Below are positions 7,155 to 63,923 of a stretch of DNA of 64,000 nt, in pieces (within the stretch, counting starts at the first letter, position 1; the number at the start of each line of letters is the position of its first letter). This DNA comes from Paludisphaera mucosa (GTDB taxonomy: Bacteria; Planctomycetota; Planctomycetia; Isosphaerales; Isosphaeraceae), in NCBI RefSeq assembly GCF_029589435.1, contig NZ_JARRAG010000002.1, positions 62,001 to 126,000 of the forward strand, given 5' to 3'. The translations under genes and the position numbers were made by a program. The notes beneath the pieces were generated by a model. That model did not search any database and had not been told where the DNA came from. It saw only the letters and a program-made list of their open reading frames with translations.

Positions 7155-8099
7155 ATGGAACCCGTGTCGCTCGATCGCACCCAGATCCTGGTGCTCAACT
7201 ACAACGGCCGGGCGCTCCTGCAGGAGTGCCTCCCCTCGGTGATCGAGGCCGCGCGCCGATCGCCCGTCCCCTGCGGGGTCGTCGTGGTCGACAACGACTC
7301 GACCGACGACTCGCTCGCCCGGCTGGCCTTCGAGTTCCCCGACGTCCGCGTCGTCCGCCGGCCCAACCGCGGGCTCGCCTCGTTCAACGACGTGTTGCAG
7401 GAGCTGGACGAGCCCGTCGTCCTGCTGCTCAACAACGACGTCAAGCTCGCCCCCGAAGCCGTCGGCCCGCTGCTCCGCCCCTTCGCGGAAAGGCCCGACG
7501 CGCTCTTCTCAGCGCCCCTCTGCTGGACCTTCGACGGCCGGCTCTACGAGGGGATGCGGACGCGGGTCCGGACGCGGTTCGGCCTCGTGCAGGGGATGTG
7601 CCGCGTGCCGGGCCACGAGGCCCGCATCCACGAGGCCGACCTGACCGCCGCCGCGGGACCCATCCTGGCCGTCGACCGTGCCCGGTTCCTGGCGATCGGC
7701 GGCTACGATCCCATTTACTTCCCCGGCCGCATCGAGGACCTCGACCTCGGCTTCCGGGCCTGGATGGCCGGGCTCCGTGGCTACTACGTCCCCGAGTCGA
7801 CCGCCTACCACAAGGGGTTCGCCACCTTCGCGCCGGAGCTGGGAGAGGCCCGCTGCGACGGCCTGGCGATCCGAAATACGTTGATCTTCGCGTGGAAGAA
7901 CCTCCGCGGCGTGCGGCTGGCGAAGCACCTCGGCTGGCTGGCCGTCCGGCTGGCCCGGGGCGGGCGGGCCTTCCGCCGGGCCTTCCTCGAGGCGGCCTCG
8001 CGTTGGCCCGAGGTCGCCAGGGCCCGAAGCGCCCTGCACGCGGGATCGACCGGCTGGGTCGAGCGCCAGGAGGCGTTCTTCCGCCGCTTCGACTGGTGA
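7155..8099 (+). CDS. Glycosyltransferase family 2
   Basis: A 314-residue GT-A fold glycosyltransferase of the rhamnosyltransferase/WbbL-like GT2 group. The N-terminus shows ILVLNYNGR. It is followed by VVVVDNDSTDDS, binding the nucleotide base, and LLLNNDVKL, which takes the DxD-equivalent position. A later acidic segment, GRIEDLDLGFRAW, carries the ED and Asp residues of the catalytic region. The C-terminal 80 residues are Arg-rich and amphipathic, suggesting membrane association. ATG 7155 is used; GTG 7164 is an alternative. It is the first gene of the eight-gene envelope-polymer run extending to 14799. Confidence 0.88.
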   Translation: MEPVSLDRTQILVLNYNGRALLQECLPSVIEAARRSPVPCGVVVVDNDSTDDSLARLAFEFPDVRVVRRPNRGLASFNDVLQELDEPVVLLLNNDVKLAPEAVGPLLRPFAERPDALFSAPLCWTFDGRLYEGMRTRVRTRFGLVQGMCRVPGHEARIHEADLTAAAGPILAVDRARFLAIGGYDPIYFPGRIEDLDLGFRAWMAGLRGYYVPESTAYHKGFATFAPELGEARCDGLAIRNTLIFAWKNLRGVRLAKHLGWLAVRLARGGRAFRRAFLEAASRWPEVARARSALHAGSTGWVERQEAFFRRFDW

Positions 8100-56444: not shown

Positions 56445-56516
56445 GGGGCTCGGACGGGCCATCTCAGGCTGGAGCCTAACCAACCGCCCGACGGCCCCGG
56501 AAATCAACATTTTTTT
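56445..56516 (+). terminator. Branched stem-loop ending in seven T residues
   Basis: In the 388-bp gap 56388-56775, GGGGC (56445-56449) can pair with GCCCC (56494-56498), and CGGGC (56455-56459) with GCCCG (56486-56490). The loop holds an inner hairpin AGGCT-GG-AGCCT. T7 follows at 56510-56516. It may terminate transcription from 55020-56387. A TATAGT hexamer at 56420-56425 also allows a short separate RNA. The rest of the gap holds only the promoter at 56668. Confidence 0.4.
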
Positions 56517-56667
56517 GAGCGAACGGACCCAATTTCGACGGCCGCGCGCGGTCTGCAACGGCCAATTTGATAAGCCTTTAGGCGGACGACGCCTCGGCCG
56601 GGGCGGTCCGAGCGGACCCGAACGGAGCCGGCCCGCGGCAAAGGCGGCGGGTCCGAATTCCAGCGGA

Positions 56668-56696
56668 TTGACACGCTCGTGCGGGCGTCGGATAGT
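56668..56696 (+). promoter_or_regulatory. Sigma-70-type promoter of the ExbB/ExbD module
   Basis: A perfect TTGACA (56668-56673) is followed after 17 bases by GATAGT (56691-56696), four of six -10 positions. The start codon of the ExbB-like gene is about 80 bases downstream. This is the closest match to a consensus promoter in the window. Confidence 0.62.
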
Positions 56697-56775
56697 GAAT
56701 CACGGGTCGACGGTCGGCGCAGGTCACGTCGGAAATCTTCGGCATTCCTGGGCGAGTCAGGCGAGGGGGCGGCAC

Positions 56776-57696
56776 ATGCGTCTGCGACAGGGGATCCGCC
56801 GGACGGGCGGGGCTTGGCTGGCGTTCTCGGCGGCGACGGCCTTGCTGGCCTGGCTGGCGGCCGGAGGCGCGGCGCGGCTCTCGGCCCAGGAGCCGGCGAA
56901 GGAAACGGCCCCCCCGGCCGCGGAAGCCCCGGCCCCCGCGCCGGCCCAGCCCGAAGCGGCCGCTCCGCCCGCGGACGGCAAGGCCGAGGAGCCCGCCAGG
57001 GCCGAAGGTGCCGCGACGCCCGCCGCAGAAGGGACCGCCCCGGCCGCGCCCGAGAACATGCTGCAGTGGGCCATCCGCGCCTCGGGGCCGATCGGCGTCT
57101 TCCTCGTCTTCCTGTCGGTCTACTTCACCGCCCTGGTCATCCGCCTGTTCATCGAGTACCGCGTGACCGAGGCCGTGCCGCCTCCGCTGGTCGAGAAGCT
57201 CGAGGCGGCGATCCGCGACAAGAAGTTCCAGGAGGCGTACGACCTCTGCCGCGACAACGACTCGTTCCTGGCCCGGCTGGTGCGGACCGGGATCGCCAAC
57301 CTCCCCAACGGCCGCGCCGAGGCCAAGGAGGCGATGGCCACGACGTCGGCCGAGATCGTCACCGAACTGGAGATGAAGATCAGCTACCTGGCCACGATCG
57401 GCACGCTCGGCCCGATGATCGGGCTGGTGGGCACGGTCTGGGGCATGATCGAGAGCTTCCGCGAGATCGCCACCGCCGCCGGCGCCCAGCCCCGGCCCGA
57501 CAAGGTGGCCGCCGGCATCTCGACGGCCCTGTTCATCACGCTCGAGGGCGTCTCGCTGTCGGTGCCGGCGATCTTCTTCTTCGCCTTCTTCCGCAACCGG
57601 GTCGCCGCGATGACCATCGAGGCCAACCGCGTCGCCGACCGCACCATCAACTCGCTGGTGACGGCCGCCAAGACCACCTCCAAGCCCACGGCCTGA
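56776..57696 (+). CDS. MotA/TolQ/ExbB proton-channel protein
   Basis: A 306-residue inner-membrane protein. It has a long N-terminal part with a signal-like hydrophobic segment (~15-35) and an Ala/Pro/Glu-rich linker (~40-92). The ExbB/TolQ core follows, with TM helices near 102-124, 218-240 and 257-280. SYLATIGTLGPMIGLVGTVWGMI is the conserved pore-lining region, and EGVSLSVPAIFFF the third helix. It should form a pentamer around ExbD dimers to use proton motive force. GAGGGGG precedes the ATG. Two ExbD-like genes follow; no TonB or TolA is adjacent. Confidence 0.9.
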   Translation: MRLRQGIRRTGGAWLAFSAATALLAWLAAGGAARLSAQEPAKETAPPAAEAPAPAPAQPEAAAPPADGKAEEPARAEGAATPAAEGTAPAAPENMLQWAIRASGPIGVFLVFLSVYFTALVIRLFIEYRVTEAVPPPLVEKLEAAIRDKKFQEAYDLCRDNDSFLARLVRTGIANLPNGRAEAKEAMATTSAEIVTELEMKISYLATIGTLGPMIGLVGTVWGMIESFREIATAAGAQPRPDKVAAGISTALFITLEGVSLSVPAIFFFAFFRNRVAAMTIEANRVADRTINSLVTAAKTTSKPTA

Positions 57697-57737
57697 ACGC
57701 CGGTCGAGCCGAGCCCGAAGCCCGGAGGGACGCCACG

Positions 57738-58211
57738 ATGAGCGGGGGAGTGATCTCCAAGGAGAAAGCGGAGCCGAACCTCACGCCGCTGCTGGACATC
57801 GTGTTCCAGCTGATCACCTTCTTCATGCTCGTCATCAACTTCGCCAGCGACAACTACGACCAGCGCGTCAACCTCCCCGACGCCGGCTCCGCCCGGCCGG
57901 TGGAGGACGACGCGCGGATCTCCGAGGACCGCCTGGTCCTCAACGTCGACTCCGAGGGCCGGCTGCTCCACGGCGACGAGGCGCAGGGGATCGACGCGGC
58001 CGTTCAGACGATCCGACACCAGGCCGACCTGGTGAAGCTGGGCCTCAAGGCGTCGGGCGTCAAGTTCGACGCGGCCACGGGCTCGCTCCCCACGACCATC
58101 ATCCTCCGCGCCGACAAGGAGACCTCCTTCGGCGCCGTCCTGGGGATCATCAAGGCGTGCCAGGCCCAGGGCTTCCGCAAGTTCGCCCTCAAGGCCATGA
58201 TCCGCAGCTGA
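57738..58211 (+). CDS. ExbD/TolR-family protein, first copy
   Basis: A 157-residue protein with a short cytoplasmic N-terminus, one transmembrane helix (~18-37, LLDIVFQLITFFMLVI) and a periplasmic domain. The membrane Asp, D20 in NLTPLLDIVFQL, is the proton-carrying residue of the family. The C-terminal domain (TIILRADKETSFGAVLGII) is the TolR/ExbD fold. It lies 41 bp after the ExbB gene. A second ExbD follows, so the channel may contain an ExbD heterodimer. Confidence 0.9.
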   Translation: MSGGVISKEKAEPNLTPLLDIVFQLITFFMLVINFASDNYDQRVNLPDAGSARPVEDDARISEDRLVLNVDSEGRLLHGDEAQGIDAAVQTIRHQADLVKLGLKASGVKFDAATGSLPTTIILRADKETSFGAVLGIIKACQAQGFRKFALKAMIRS

Positions 58212-58261
58212 TTAAACAGGTCGGAATCCGTCGATCGATCGTTCAAGCAGGGGGGCCGGCC

Positions 58262-58768
58262 GTGGCGCGTCGAGGCGGTGGGATCGAGATGGACGGGCCC
58301 GACGTGCCGGTCGCGCCGATGCTCGACATGGCGTTCCAGCTCCTGACGTTCTTCGTCCTGACCTACCGCGCCGCGCCGGTGGAGGGGCAGTTCGTGATGA
58401 ACCTGCTCCCCGCCCAGCCCGCGACCTCGATGGCCGCGGCCCCCGCCGAGGCGTCGGCCGCCAACGACCTGCCGGCCACCCTGCGGACCCTGCCCGTCGT
58501 CCTGAGGGCCGACGACGCCGGCCGATTGGCGCAGGTCAGCATCGCCGAGGTCGACGTCTCGAACGACCCGAAGGCCCTGGAGCAGGAGCTCGACCGCCAC
58601 TTCCTGGACCCCGACGCCCCCTTCGACCAGACCCTCATCAAGGTCGACCCCAACCTGCGCTACGCCGAGCTGATGACGATCATCGACGCCTTCACCAACG
58701 CGTTCGTCAAGGCGAAGAAGGAGCCCAAGCTGAGCTTCGACGAGCTGCGGGGCGACGACGGAGGCTGA
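58262..58768 (+). CDS. ExbD/TolR-family protein, second copy
   Basis: A 168-residue divergent ExbD (GTG start with a G-rich ribosome-binding site). The membrane Asp is kept as D22 in PMLDMAFQLLTFF. The periplasmic part differs from the first copy: it has an Ala-rich linker (~50-68) and a C-terminal YAELMTIIDAFTNAF instead of the usual ending. It lies 50 bp after the first copy and 6 bp before the next gene, so four genes are co-transcribed. Two unlike ExbDs with one ExbB suggest an asymmetric pair inside the pentamer. Confidence 0.82.
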   Translation: MARRGGGIEMDGPDVPVAPMLDMAFQLLTFFVLTYRAAPVEGQFVMNLLPAQPATSMAAAPAEASAANDLPATLRTLPVVLRADDAGRLAQVSIAEVDVSNDPKALEQELDRHFLDPDAPFDQTLIKVDPNLRYAELMTIIDAFTNAFVKAKKEPKLSFDELRGDDGG

Positions 58769-58774
58769 GCCGCC

Positions 58775-59647
58775 ATGGCCATGGATCGACCGAGCCCGTT
58801 CTTCCGCGGGTCGGAGCTGCCCCGCCTGGCCCTGCTGGCGGCCGTGGCGCTCGCCGGCTGGGGCGCCGTCTGGTACTTCGCCAACCGGCCCCCCGGCCCC
58901 GCCCCCGAGCCCCCGCTCCGTGCCGGGGCCCCGCCCGTCGCCGTCGAGCCCGACCGCTCCGAAGTCTTCGAGACCGTGACCGACCGCACGCCGATGACGT
59001 TCCGCGACAACGCCGCCTACGCCTACCTGCTGGAGAAGGCCCGCGCCCATTCCCCGACCGAACTCGCCGCCCAGGCCCGCCGCGACGTCTTCCTGACCCA
59101 CCTGTGGGAGCGGCCCGAGCACTACCGCGGCGTCCCCGTCCACATCCAGGGCGCGGCGCTCCGGGTGGCCCGGTTCGAGTCCAAACTCAGCAAGACCGGC
59201 TGGCTCTACGAGGCCTGGGTCGTCACCCCCGACGCGCGCCGCTATCCCTACGACTGCGTCTTCGAGCAGCCCCCGGACGGGTTCCCGATCGGCACCGAGA
59301 TCAACGAGCGGGTGGCCTTCAACGGCTACTTCCTCAAGGTCATGAAGTACCAGGCCGCCGACGTCGCCCGGGGCGCGCCGGTGCTCGTGGGCAAGCTCGG
59401 CTGGGAGCCCCGCCCCGCCGACTCGCCCGTCAAGGAGTCGAACAAGGTCCTCTACTGGTCGATGGTCGTCGTCGGCGTCCTGTTCCTCGTCTCCCTGGCG
59501 CGCTGGGTCTCCCAACTCCTGCACTACCTCACCTTCCCCCGCCGCAACGGCACGCCCTCGCGCACCTTCCCCGACGAGATCCCGCCCGACGACCTGCAAG
59601 CCTGGGTCGAGTCGCAAGGCGACGACGAGGACGCGGCGCCGCCGTGA
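58775..59647 (+). CDS. Two-helix membrane protein of the ExbB/ExbD module
   Basis: A 290-residue protein of unknown function. TM1 is at about 17-37 (ALLAAVALAGWGAVWYF) and TM2 at about 228-250 (MVVVGVLFLVSLARWV). Between them is a ~170-residue domain expected in the periplasm (HYRGVPVHIQGAALRV, WVVTPDARRYPYDCVFEQ). The C-terminus is cytoplasmic and acidic. It follows the second ExbD by 6 bp. It has no TonB/TolA-like extended Pro region; it may be a novel force-transducing or load-bearing partner, but this is inference. Confidence 0.62.
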   Translation: MAMDRPSPFFRGSELPRLALLAAVALAGWGAVWYFANRPPGPAPEPPLRAGAPPVAVEPDRSEVFETVTDRTPMTFRDNAAYAYLLEKARAHSPTELAAQARRDVFLTHLWERPEHYRGVPVHIQGAALRVARFESKLSKTGWLYEAWVVTPDARRYPYDCVFEQPPDGFPIGTEINERVAFNGYFLKVMKYQAADVARGAPVLVGKLGWEPRPADSPVKESNKVLYWSMVVVGVLFLVSLARWVSQLLHYLTFPRRNGTPSRTFPDEIPPDDLQAWVESQGDDEDAAPP

Positions 59648-59840: not shown

Positions 59841-60410
59841 TCAGTCGGCCTCGATGGCCAGCTTGAGGGTCAGCACGACCTTCCGGGGGTGCTTGGGATC
59901 CTTGGCGTCGGCCTCGAGTTCCTGGGTCTCGTAGCGGAGGAGGACGACGTCCTCGCCGGGCTTGGGGGCGACGGGCTTCTCGATCCGGGTCGTGGAGCCG
60001 GCGAAGGCCTTCCAGCCCCACCATAGGGCGTCCGGGGGCAGCGCGATCCCCGAGCCCCCGCGCGAGGCCTCGGAGTGGATGCGGAGCTGGAGGTCCGACG
60101 GGCGGAGGAAGAACAGGATCTTGCCCCGGTCCGCGCCCGGCGTCTTGTTGGCCTCCTTGACGAGCAGGATCTCCTTCTTGCTGACGGTCTTCTGGCCCAC
60201 CTCCTCGGCCTCCAGCCAGCACTTCGGGCGGCCCCCCTCGTACTCGAAGACCCACGCGCCGATGCCCAGGAAGTCGGCCAGGTCCTCGGCCGAGAGCGAG
60301 CTGCTGCGGACCGTCCCCGCGGGCCGGGGCTCCTCGGCGAGGGCCGGAACGGGCGTCGGGCAGAGCGTCGCGAAGACGAACGGGAGGGAGAGGACGAGAG
60401 CGCGTTTCAT
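59841..60410 (-). CDS. Secreted protein, unknown function
   Basis: A 189-residue protein with a signal peptide (ALVLSLPFVFATLCPTPVPALA, cleavage near residue 25). The mature domain is rich in beta strands (GAWVFEYEGG, KILFFLRPSDLQLRI, VVLLRYETQELE, VVLTLKLAIE), suggesting a compact beta-sandwich. No family is recognised. It is downstream of the small membrane protein gene and the GTPases on the minus strand, with a 40-bp gap. The 3' end faces repeat copy B. Confidence 0.6.
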   Translation of the reverse strand: MKRALVLSLPFVFATLCPTPVPALAEEPRPAGTVRSSSLSAEDLADFLGIGAWVFEYEGGRPKCWLEAEEVGQKTVSKKEILLVKEANKTPGADRGKILFFLRPSDLQLRIHSEASRGGSGIALPPDALWWGWKAFAGSTTRIEKPVAPKPGEDVVLLRYETQELEADAKDPKHPRKVVLTLKLAIEAD

Positions 60411-60450: not shown

Positions 60451-60891
60451 TCATTCGGGGGTCTCGTCGACGGGCACGAGCACGTTGCGGCTCTGGAGCA
60501 GGCCGACGAGGCCGTCGAACCGCCAGCGGCCGTCTTCCTCGACGAGCTGGTAGACGAAGCCCGTGCGGTTCGTGGGGCAGATCCAGACGCCGGCGCCCTG
60601 CCGCCACGCCTGGAAATTCTTGCCGATGTAGCGCGGGAGGCCCACGATCCCCCCCTCGGCCGCCGGCCGGATCGGGTGCGAGGCCAGGTAGCGCGTGGTG
60701 TAGTAGGGCCGCGCGGCCTCGATCCGCGCCGGATCGGCCAGGTCGGGCCGGTTGGCGAGGGCGATCAGCTCGGAATAGGCCCGGACCGCCTGGCGCACGG
60801 GGCGGGTGGCGACGACCTCGAAGGCGAGGCCCCCGGCCAGCACGGCGACGCCGGCCGCGACGATCAGGACGTTGCGCGCCTTGGGGCTCAT
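60451..60891 (-). CDS. Small membrane-anchored protein of the GTPase cluster
   Basis: A 146-residue protein with one N-terminal helix (~8-28, VLIVAAGVAVLAGGLAFEVVA) and a soluble domain (YTTRYLASHP, GVWICPTNRTGFVYQLV, WRFDGLVGLL). The soluble part looks like an NTF2- or SnoaL-like small alpha/beta fold, but this is weak. Its ATG overlaps the upstream GTPase stop (ATGA), so the two are translationally coupled and probably act together. No family is recognised. Confidence 0.62.
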   Translation of the reverse strand: MSPKARNVLIVAAGVAVLAGGLAFEVVATRPVRQAVRAYSELIALANRPDLADPARIEAARPYYTTRYLASHPIRPAAEGGIVGLPRYIGKNFQAWRQGAGVWICPTNRTGFVYQLVEEDGRWRFDGLVGLLQSRNVLVPVDETPE

Positions 60892-62330
60892 CGCTTGAGC
60901 TGCGACTTCAGCTCGTCGCGGAGGCGATCGACGATCGAGTCGGCCTTGGCCTGGGCGAGGAGCTCCTGGACGACCGTCTTGACGCCGCGCGGGCCCCATT
61001 GCCCCCCCTGCCTCAGGTACGTGCCGGCGGCGCGGCCGATGACGTACGAGGCCGACGACGACGCCACGGCCTGCGTCAGCCCGATCGCCCCGTAGCCCAG
61101 GGCCGTCAGGGGCGCGGCCAGGCCGCCGGACATCACGGTCAGGCCCGCCATCGACGCCTTCACGCCGCTGCCGACGAGCCGGGTCGCCACCTGGATCAGG
61201 CCGGTCGCGCCCAGGGCCAGGCTCATGTCGCGGACCAGCCGGACGGCGGCCGACCGCGAGAGGGGGATGCCGTAGACCCGGCTGAGCGCCAGGATCATCG
61301 CCACGTCGACCGCGAGGCCCCCCGCCAGGTCGGCCACCGGGATCGGGTTGAGCGCGACGGCCGCCCCCTTCGCCAGCGAGTAGTTCCAGATCAGGCGGTT
61401 CGCGGCGTCCTCGCGGATCCGCACCTTGCGCTCGAGGATCTCGGCGTGGAGGTCGCCGGCGGTCAGCAGGGTGTTGAGCGCCACGAGCGCCTTGCCCTCG
61501 CGCTCCAGGACGTCGAGGATCCGCACCTTCAGGGGCTCGATCAGGGGGGCGGGGCGCTCCCACTCGGTCCGGGTCGCGCCGTCCGGGGTCCGTACCTTGA
61601 CCAGGACCGGGTCGGGCCGTGCGGCGCAGAGGACGACGTCCTCGGGGCGGACGAAGCCCTTCACGCGCTCGTCCTCCAGCATGGCGTGGATCGCGTCGCG
61701 GTCGGCGTCGGGGTAGCGGTCGACCTGGTTGAAGACGAGCAGGATCGGCTTCTTGTGGCGGCGAAGCTCGATCAGGGCGTCGATCTCGATCCGCTGCATA
61801 TCGCCCGAGACGACGAACAGGATCAGGTCGGCGCGACGGGCGGCGTCGCGGGCCTGGGCCTCGCGGACCTCGCCGCCGACCTCGTCGATGCCGGGGGTGT
61901 CGACCAGGATCAGGCGGGCCTCCGGGAACCCGCCGCCGCCCGATTCGGCCCACTCCTGGGTCGAACGCCGGACGGTCGTGCCGTGGGTCGCGCCGACCTC
62001 GAAAAGGTCGCGGCCGAGGAGGGCGTTGAGGACCGACGACTTGCCCCGGCTGACCATCCCGAAGGCGACGATCTCGACGGTCGTCTCGTCGAGCTTCACG
62101 GCCAGCTCGCGGAGCCGGGCCAGCTCCGGGGCCATCGCCTTCGCTTCCTCGGGCGTGAGCTGGAGGGCGTCGAGCGTGGCCTTCAGGCTGTCCCGGGCCC
62201 GCTCGACGGCGTCGGGCGAGGTCGTTCCGGCGGCGACGTCCGCGGCGTGCTGCAGGTCGTCGAGCAGCGGGCCGAGCGCCCCGGCCCCGGCGTCCTGATC
62301 GGGCTTCTGACCGCCCGGCGTCGTACCCAT
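60888..62330 (-). CDS. Era-like GTPase with C-terminal membrane-associated domain
   Basis: A 480-residue GTPase. G1 is GMVSRGKSS, G3 DTPGID and G4 N201-Q-V-D204 (Gln in place of the usual Lys). The C-terminal ~180 residues have a DUF697-like set of hydrophobic helices (NPIPVADLAGGLAVDVAMILALSRVYG, quoted in part). The N-terminal ~70 residues are helical. Its paralogue is encoded 33 bp upstream. The small membrane protein gene is coupled to its stop. Such proteins are usually linked to membrane stress or remodelling, but no function is proven. Confidence 0.82.
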   Translation of the reverse strand: MGTTPGGQKPDQDAGAGALGPLLDDLQHAADVAAGTTSPDAVERARDSLKATLDALQLTPEEAKAMAPELARLRELAVKLDETTVEIVAFGMVSRGKSSVLNALLGRDLFEVGATHGTTVRRSTQEWAESGGGGFPEARLILVDTPGIDEVGGEVREAQARDAARRADLILFVVSGDMQRIEIDALIELRRHKKPILLVFNQVDRYPDADRDAIHAMLEDERVKGFVRPEDVVLCAARPDPVLVKVRTPDGATRTEWERPAPLIEPLKVRILDVLEREGKALVALNTLLTAGDLHAEILERKVRIREDAANRLIWNYSLAKGAAVALNPIPVADLAGGLAVDVAMILALSRVYGIPLSRSAAVRLVRDMSLALGATGLIQVATRLVGSGVKASMAGLTVMSGGLAAPLTALGYGAIGLTQAVASSSASYVIGRAAGTYLRQGGQWGPRGVKTVVQELLAQAKADSIVDRLRDELKSQLKR

Positions 62331-62363
62331 TCGGAATATCCCTTCGACGTCGCGTCGGCTGCC

Positions 62364-63923
62364 TCAGGAGGCGTGGCGGTCCGGGACCGGGGCGGCCTTG
62401 CGGCGAACCTTGGACAGGAAGCGGTCGATCGCCTGGCGGGCGAACTCCTGGAGGAAGTCGGCCCGGCTGTTGGCCTCGAACTGCCGGAGCACGGCCCCCT
62501 CGATCCCCTCCGGGCCCCAGGTCTCGCCGTCCCGGAAGTAGTCGGCCAGGGTCTTGCCGGCGATCCGGGCGAGATACGCCATCGTGACCGCCTGCACCGC
62601 GCCCGCCGCCACGAAGGTCGTCGGCGTCCGCTTGAAGACCCCCGCGACGACCGACGACGCGGCCTCGACCAGGCCGACCTTGAGCATCGCCTGCGCCAGC
62701 CGCCCGCCCAGCGCCCGGAGCCTCGCCGCGCCCGGATCGAGATCGTAGACCCGCGCCAGGTCGGCGATCAGGTCGAGCTGCACGGCCGCGCCCTGCAGCA
62801 GGTTCAGGGCCGGGACGGGGTTGGCGAAGACGGTCGTCGCCGTGACCCACTGGTAATGATCCACCAGCTCGTCGCACTTGAGCCGACGTTCGGCGTCCAG
62901 CGTCGACTCGGCCTCGCGGCCCAGCAGCCGGGTCTTGAGCAGCAGGTTGGCGACGCGGAGCAGCCGCCCCTCGTTGGCGAGCACCCGGGCGATCCGGTCG
63001 CGGAGGGCCTGGACGTCGGGATCCTGGACCTCGTAAACCGTCTGGGACGAGCCGTCGGGCTGCATGACGCGGACCGGGATCGGCCGCGGGGCGGCGGCGA
63101 TCGTCACCACGTCGTCGGCCGGCACGACGCCTTCCACCCGGCTGCGGATCCGGGCGAGGATCGCCGTCCGGTCGGCGTCGGGGAAGCGATTCTTCTTGTT
63201 GAAGACGACGATCGTCCGCTTGCCCAGCCTGGCCAGCTCGTTCAGGGCGGCGTATTCGCCCCGGACCAGGTCGTGGTCGACGACGAACAGCAGCAGGTCG
63301 GCCCGCTGGGCCAGCCGCCGCGCGTCCTGCTCGCGCTCGCCGCCGCCCAGGCCCGCCTCGGAGAGGCCCGGCGTGTCGACCAGGCGGACGATCCCCTCGA
63401 CGCCTTCGAGCGTGTAGACGTGGTTCTCGCCCTGACGCGTCGTCCCCATGACGGCCCCGGTCGCGCCCACCTCGCGGCCGATCAGGGCGTTGATGAGCGA
63501 CGTCTTGCCGGCCGAGACCGTGCCGAAGACGACGACGTCCAGCTCCGACGTCGTGGCGACCCGGCCCTCGTCCAGCCGGTCCAGCTCGCCCCGCAGCTCC
63601 TCGCGCCGGCGGACGTCGCGGATCTTCTCGATGTGCTCCCGCGCCCGGGCCGCCTGCAGCTCGGCGGCCTCGGCCAGCGAGACGGGGTCGAGCGGCGGCG
63701 ACTCCTCGCGCTCGTCCCGGCCCTCGGCCTTGCGCGTCGCGAGCGCCGTCCATCCGGCCCAGGCGAGGGTCAGGGCCACGGCCAGGCCGAGCGGGATCAG
63801 GAGCGCCGGCTTCCCGCCGCCGAGACGGTCGCCGCTCATCGCGACGGCCAGGAAGAGGGCCGCGGCCGTCAGAGCGGCGGCGAGGGGGATGAGGAGGCTT
63901 TGAGAGAGGCGCGAGGGTCGCAT
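62364..63923 (-). CDS. Membrane-anchored Era-like GTPase, paralogue
   Basis: A 519-residue GTPase with two N-terminal transmembrane helices (~11-30 and 40-62), a helical linker and a G domain. G1 is GTVSAGKTS, G3 DTPGLS. G4 is N242-K-K-N245: the Asp that reads the guanine base is replaced by Asn (codon AAT). The C-terminal domain (NPVPALNLLQGAAVQLDLIADLARVY, quoted in part) is the same DUF697-like unit as in the neighbouring GTPase. The layout is otherwise collinear with the paralogue, so they arose by duplication. Confidence 0.82.
   Translation of the reverse strand: MRPSRLSQSLLIPLAAALTAAALFLAVAMSGDRLGGGKPALLIPLGLAVALTLAWAGWTALATRKAEGRDEREESPPLDPVSLAEAAELQAARAREHIEKIRDVRRREELRGELDRLDEGRVATTSELDVVVFGTVSAGKTSLINALIGREVGATGAVMGTTRQGENHVYTLEGVEGIVRLVDTPGLSEAGLGGGEREQDARRLAQRADLLLFVVDHDLVRGEYAALNELARLGKRTIVVFNKKNRFPDADRTAILARIRSRVEGVVPADDVVTIAAAPRPIPVRVMQPDGSSQTVYEVQDPDVQALRDRIARVLANEGRLLRVANLLLKTRLLGREAESTLDAERRLKCDELVDHYQWVTATTVFANPVPALNLLQGAAVQLDLIADLARVYDLDPGAARLRALGGRLAQAMLKVGLVEAASSVVAGVFKRTPTTFVAAGAVQAVTMAYLARIAGKTLADYFRDGETWGPEGIEGAVLRQFEANSRADFLQEFARQAIDRFLSKVRRKAAPVPDRHAS

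Follow-up and report, generated by a model that had tools for sequence, protein, structure and literature searches.

Layout and domains of the locus

In the 64,000-nucleotide stretch of Paludisphaera mucosa DNA that we analysed (the window), two GTPase genes, here called A and B, lie in tandem on the minus strand and are followed by a small third gene, C:

62364..63923, minus strand: gene A, GTPase with a predicted membrane anchor and DUF697 (519 aa; PF01926 62.2 bits, PF05128 116.3 bits)
60888..62330, minus strand: gene B, GTPase with DUF697 (480 aa; PF01926 61.3 bits, PF05128 105.1 bits)
60451..60891, minus strand: gene C, small predicted membrane protein (146 aa; one N-terminal membrane helix by hydropathy)

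The gap between A and B is 33 bp (62331-62363), and the start of C overlaps the stop of B by 4 bp (ATGA). Pfam and NCBIfam profile searches with C returned zero matches; C is recognisable 3' of B at most loci of the window's own family, the Isosphaeraceae. A 189-aa open reading frame with a signal-peptide-like start (59841-60410, minus strand) comes after C and may share the operon. ExbB/TolQ-like and ExbD-like genes lie just past A-B-C on the opposite strand (56515-59647, plus), and an ExbB-like gene is likewise found near the GTPase cluster at locus L048. Other neighbours, recognised by eye, are a Wza-type export protein and a phosphatase-like protein.

The features of the A protein, all encoded on the minus strand, are:

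63840..63896, minus strand: hydrophobic helix 1, aa 10-28 (Kyte-Doolittle 2.44; helix 5-32 in the AlphaFold model)
63750..63806, minus strand: hydrophobic helix 2, aa 40-58 (Kyte-Doolittle 1.87; helix 35-70 in the AlphaFold model)
63501..63524, minus strand: G1 motif GTVSAGKT, aa 134 (motif reading)
63366..63377, minus strand: G3 motif DTPG, aa 183 (motif reading)
63189..63200, minus strand: G4 motif NKKN, aa 242-245, with Asp245 changed to Asn (AAT here, GAC in 5/5 congeners)
62469..62933, minus strand: DUF697 domain, aa 331-485 (Pfam profile)

Those of the B protein are:

62037..62060, minus strand: G1 motif GMVSRGKS, aa 91 (Arg invariant in own-family B, 30/30)
61890..61901, minus strand: G3 motif DTPG, aa 144 (motif reading)
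61719..61730, minus strand: G4 motif NQVD, aa 201-204 (Gln invariant in the own family, Lys in a second family)
61608..61625, minus strand: G5 motif AARPDP (third residue Arg or Lys in 30/30 own-family B)
60945..61460, minus strand: DUF697 domain, aa 291-462 (Pfam profile)

A hydropathy scan of B gave no N-terminal membrane helix. Both proteins score well above the Pfam cut-offs for MMR_HSR1 and DUF697 (DUF697: 116.3 and 105.1 against 27.7), so the G4 readings lie in a real GTPase domain rather than in a chance string. The motif strings given in the reading made from the sequence alone are exact, NKKN in A and NQVD in B, with G1 and DTPG intact within the GTPase domain of each. The AlphaFold models of A (pLDDT 87) and B (pLDDT 79) superpose well on G domains of the Era type (for A, Z 19.5 with an rmsd of 2.6 across 163 residues); in a second structure search with A (VIA), the list was filled by G-domain matches.

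Co-inheritance of A and B

In a midpoint-rooted tree of 118 proteins, some of them on long branches, the B proteins of the own family form one group (support 99) and those of the second family another (99), and the two fall together; all A types, with cyanobacterial relatives, lie on the opposite side of the midpoint root (97). This topology indicates that the split between A and B is probably older than both families. Of 37 own-family genomes, 27 carry both A and B, one carries A only, at a contig end, and nine carry neither (G010, G013, G016, G017, G022, G024, G027, G030 and G036), a co-occurrence with a Fisher P of 8e-8 that is uncorrected for relatedness. Judging by the nine genomes without it, some lineages can do without the pair. 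Sampling of 149 genomes from the second family gave matches in 73, for the most part two per genome and usually side by side. A and B are thus an old co-inherited pair whose separate clades span two families, and the description of collinear paralogues is supported. Co-inheritance and adjacency together make a common function likely, and a heterodimer of A and B is plausible on this pattern of inheritance.

The spacing of the pair varies. At most loci of the own family (e.g. L041, L042 and L101), A and B are separated by an amidase-like gene with the amidase signature; it is not there in the window's genus or in a few others, and the genomes of the window's genus hold only distant amidases elsewhere. 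A close amidase copy is found elsewhere in genomes G007 and G008. In one genome (G025), A and B lie apart on the chromosome. In a few own-family members (L039, L048, L052 and L060) a third DUF697-type GTPase lies 3' of B, with the P-loop GLINAGKS or GIINAGKS and a canonical NKxD.

Origin and meaning of the two G4 changes

The sequence-only reading had interpreted NQVD and NKKN as complementary defects of a pair and had proposed aligning homologues to see whether each motif is conserved by position. We read G4 from aligned homologues, 140 of A type and 62 of B (30 own-family and 32 outside); in cyanobacteria, a regular expression alone gave a few false odd motifs, which the aligned reading removed. 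This revealed NKxD in 139 of the 140 A-type relatives, namely 28/29 in the own family, 7/7 extra own-family paralogues, 75/75 in cyanobacteria and 29/29 in other planctomycete groups, the sole exception being the NKKN of the window. In all five congeners the motif of A is NKKD. Own-family B proteins have NQ[VI]D in 30 of 30 cases, those outside the family 29 NKxD and three TKxD (n=32), and the G4 Asp is kept in 62/62 B homologues. The two odd motifs therefore differ greatly in phylogenetic depth, the Gln of B being family-wide and the Asn of A private to one genome, and the combination of NQxD in B with NKxN in A was found in zero other genomes surveyed. Positional conservation was thus borne out for NQxD and failed for NKxN, and the canonical motif in every other A relative read is the very observation that the sequence-only reading had set against a paired change. 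Because the change in B is far older and is shared by species with a canonical A, the Asn and the Gln did not arise together.

The Gln of B comes with further changes around the nucleotide. All 30 own-family B proteins have an Arg before GKS in the P-loop (29 GMVSRGKS, one GMVGRGKS) and a basic third residue in G5, whereas second-family B proteins have the P-loop GEISTGKS and mostly Asp, Gln or His at that G5 position. As this set is found in all own-family B proteins and is missing from the second family, the change from Lys to Gln arose once, in an ancestor of the family, and became fixed. The Gln/Arg/Arg set is consequently a single evolutionary event, and the idea that the basic residues compensate for the lost Lys has one independent case.

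In Ras, the G4 Lys (Lys117) is in contact with both P-loop and ribose; substituting it accelerates nucleotide exchange and leaves hydrolysis in place (PMC8295990; also PMC8916776). Natural exceptions that do without this Lys include Cdc42, TCL and RhoH (PMC8295990). Recognition of guanine depends chiefly on the G4 Asp, with the Lys serving as a wall of the pocket (PMC7952092). In the PDB chains of human Cdc42, G4 reads TQID, so a GTPase can have Gln at the G4 Lys position and still use guanine normally, and since B keeps the base-reading Asp it should still prefer guanine nucleotides. That B had lost its Lys as a defect is accordingly not evident: the same substitution occurs in Cdc42, and the basic residues of B at G1 and G5 are specific to its clade. 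By analogy with these GTPases, B would still be a guanine-nucleotide GTPase, perhaps a fast-exchanging one, possibly compensated by its new basic residues. We consider it improbable that the Lys-to-Gln change turned B into a pseudo-GTPase or shifted it to ATP. A precedent exists in SpoIVA, where a degenerate G4 made an Era relative an ATPase (PMC7952092); the guanine-versus-adenine choice there hinges on the G4 Asp and a G5 Glu (PMC7952092), however, and required loss of the former and gain of the latter, whereas B keeps its Asp in every homologue, has Arg or Lys in G5 and intact G1 and G3, and shares its Gln with Cdc42.

The Asn of A is a late singleton, for which an assembly error, drift or a locally altered function may be responsible. 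The AAT of Asn245 is the only AAT codon in gene A, which has nine AAC codons elsewhere. Among congeners, gene A is under purifying selection (dN/dS 0.19-0.45); its 519-codon frame is intact in the window, 4 of 113 near-invariant columns are altered, and its end branch in the tree is not long, being shorter than those of the congeners. Five of the 12 changes unique to this copy fall in aa 241-270, around G4 and the following helix (P ~0.0008 for the block, ~0.013 over 18 blocks, for a block picked post hoc that includes the Asn itself), and changes also fall within the normally conserved KLRERL stretch. In one congener (G001; L032, around 7889-7994), a 1-nt frameshift interrupts gene A between the segments for G3 and G4, with B intact; the genus thus shows either errors or a relaxation of constraint on A. 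Gene conversion was considered as a source of the A G4 and set aside: a 151-bp stretch matched itself, a short stretch of B and chance-level sequences in the genome.

The NKKN could stem from an error of sequencing or assembly, or from a private and mildly deleterious mutation. We rate this somewhat below even odds; it is also compatible with our preferred explanation of the locus. The motif is unique among 140 relatives, its codon is the odd one in the gene, and the frameshift in G001 affects the same gene. Against this, two bases separate AAT from the GAC of the congeners, such that one wrong base would require GAT as the true codon, and adjacent unique changes are not expected from a single base error; this clustering leans against a lone sequencing error in A. 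That A is decaying in this species as an incipient pseudogene, leaving B to act alone, appears unlikely. The loss of an otherwise invariant Asp, the altered KLRERL stretch and the frameshifted copy in G001 would fit such decay, yet the intact frame, the few altered near-invariant columns, a dN/dS well below 1 and the short end branch oppose it, and A and B are otherwise lost together rather than singly. Constraint and branch length led us to reject the pseudogene reading.

The change from Asp to Asn in NKxD switches Ras to xanthine nucleotides (PMC7952092), and this hallmark of xanthine-selective GTPases is present in A in this genome only. By the Ras precedent, a preference of A for XTP is possible, confined to the one genome. 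The sequence-only reading went further and proposed a heterodimer of unequal nucleotide use with one subunit conditional or regulatory; spelled out, the inequality would be by design, B working on GTP and A being xanthine-selective or regulatory in this species. The intact G1 and G3 of A, its purifying selection, the clustering of its unique changes near G4, which fits a local functional change, and the behaviour of Ras speak for such a division of labour. It is nonetheless improbable, as NKxN occurs in none of the other A-type proteins read and the older change in B, common to species with a canonical A, had a separate origin. Less probable still is a scheme in which A responds to xanthine nucleotides, as might happen in purine stress, and B, its base pocket rebuilt by the Gln in G4 and an Arg in each of G1 and G5, needs no exchange factor to cycle GTP.

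Proposed module and its relation to known systems

Taken together, our analysis suggests, with a probability of about 0.58, that the locus encodes an old pair of DUF697 membrane GTPases forming a hetero-oligomeric module, in which the Gln of B evolved with other changes in the pocket and the Asn of A is unlinked to it. From co-inheritance and gene order, A and B would most likely work at the inner membrane as one hetero-oligomeric machine driven by GTP, with C as a putative accessory. A would be anchored by its two N-terminal helices and B not, each with the helical DUF697 after the G domain. B would bind guanine nucleotides with lower affinity and probably exchange them faster, unless its new basic residues compensate, and the best reading is of a membrane-anchored A and a faster-exchanging B as partners in one module. 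If the base call is right, A in this genome may bind GTP more weakly and perhaps accept XTP, judging from Ras; its Asn would not be a co-evolved counterpart of the Gln of B.

The observation that opened this analysis was correct and its interpretation as paired defects is unsupported; what stands is that A and B are inherited together and that NQxD runs through the whole family. A fixed, clade-wide change of the guanine pocket can be told apart from a private one here, and B offers a natural case of G4 Lys-to-Gln accompanied by newly acquired basic side chains in G1 and G5. The analysis also documents two uncharacterised DUF697 GTPases that form an ancient, jointly inherited pair and are amenable to tests in a planctomycete; a new nucleotide-sensing principle is not demonstrated by the pair.

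The papers on DUF697 that were consulted describe no function for it. The PF05128 family, which includes the YcjF-type TIGR01620, shares DUF697 with A and B, and B also matches TIGR01620 weakly; what sets A and B apart is that DUF697 is fused to an Era/Der-type G domain and that they form a tandem pair. The best NCBIfam model for both is slr1306_fam (NF049994; A 283.8 bits, B 152.2 bits), and A aligns over most of it yet stays below the curated cut-off of 490. Synechocystis slr1306 is named a putative CO2-concentrating component in the title of Zhang 2008, as cited in PMC5472144. We did not carry the slr1306 phenotype over to A and B, as both fall under the cut-off and two cyanobacterial relatives that we checked also reach only ~282 bits.

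Bacterial dynamin-like pairs such as Campylobacter DLP1/DLP2, and LeoA, are likewise GTPase paralogues, and many bacterial dynamin-like proteins function as hetero-oligomers (PMC6162298). A and B score 44.2 and 49.5 bits against Dynamin_N (cut-off 27), with the best stretch covering only the first 34 profile positions, at the P-loop end, and MMR_HSR1 outscores Dynamin_N in both. Compared with DLP1/DLP2 and LeoA, A and B are shorter and have DUF697 as their helical part, and their full-length models match LeoA, mitofusin, BDLP, IniA and IRG weakly (TM 0.20-0.32, large rmsd). These low scores make a dynamin-like mode of action a weak proposition, and membrane remodelling, suggested by analogy, is a lead to follow rather than a finding. 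An anti-phage role was set aside, as the PADLOC LeoA/LeoBC matches lie mainly in the G-domain region and the neighbours seen are non-defence genes.

For the nucleotide pocket, the closest parallels come from other GTPases. The TQID of Cdc42 has, like B, a natural Gln for the G4 Lys with the Asp kept, although Cdc42 belongs to a different GTPase family and has Thr rather than Asn at the first G4 position. SpoIVA is, like A and B, a TRAFAC protein with a degenerate G4 (PMC7952092). In SpoIVA neither Lys nor Asp is left and the protein uses ATP (PMC7952092); A and B have each lost a single one of the two, at separate times and in separate lineages.
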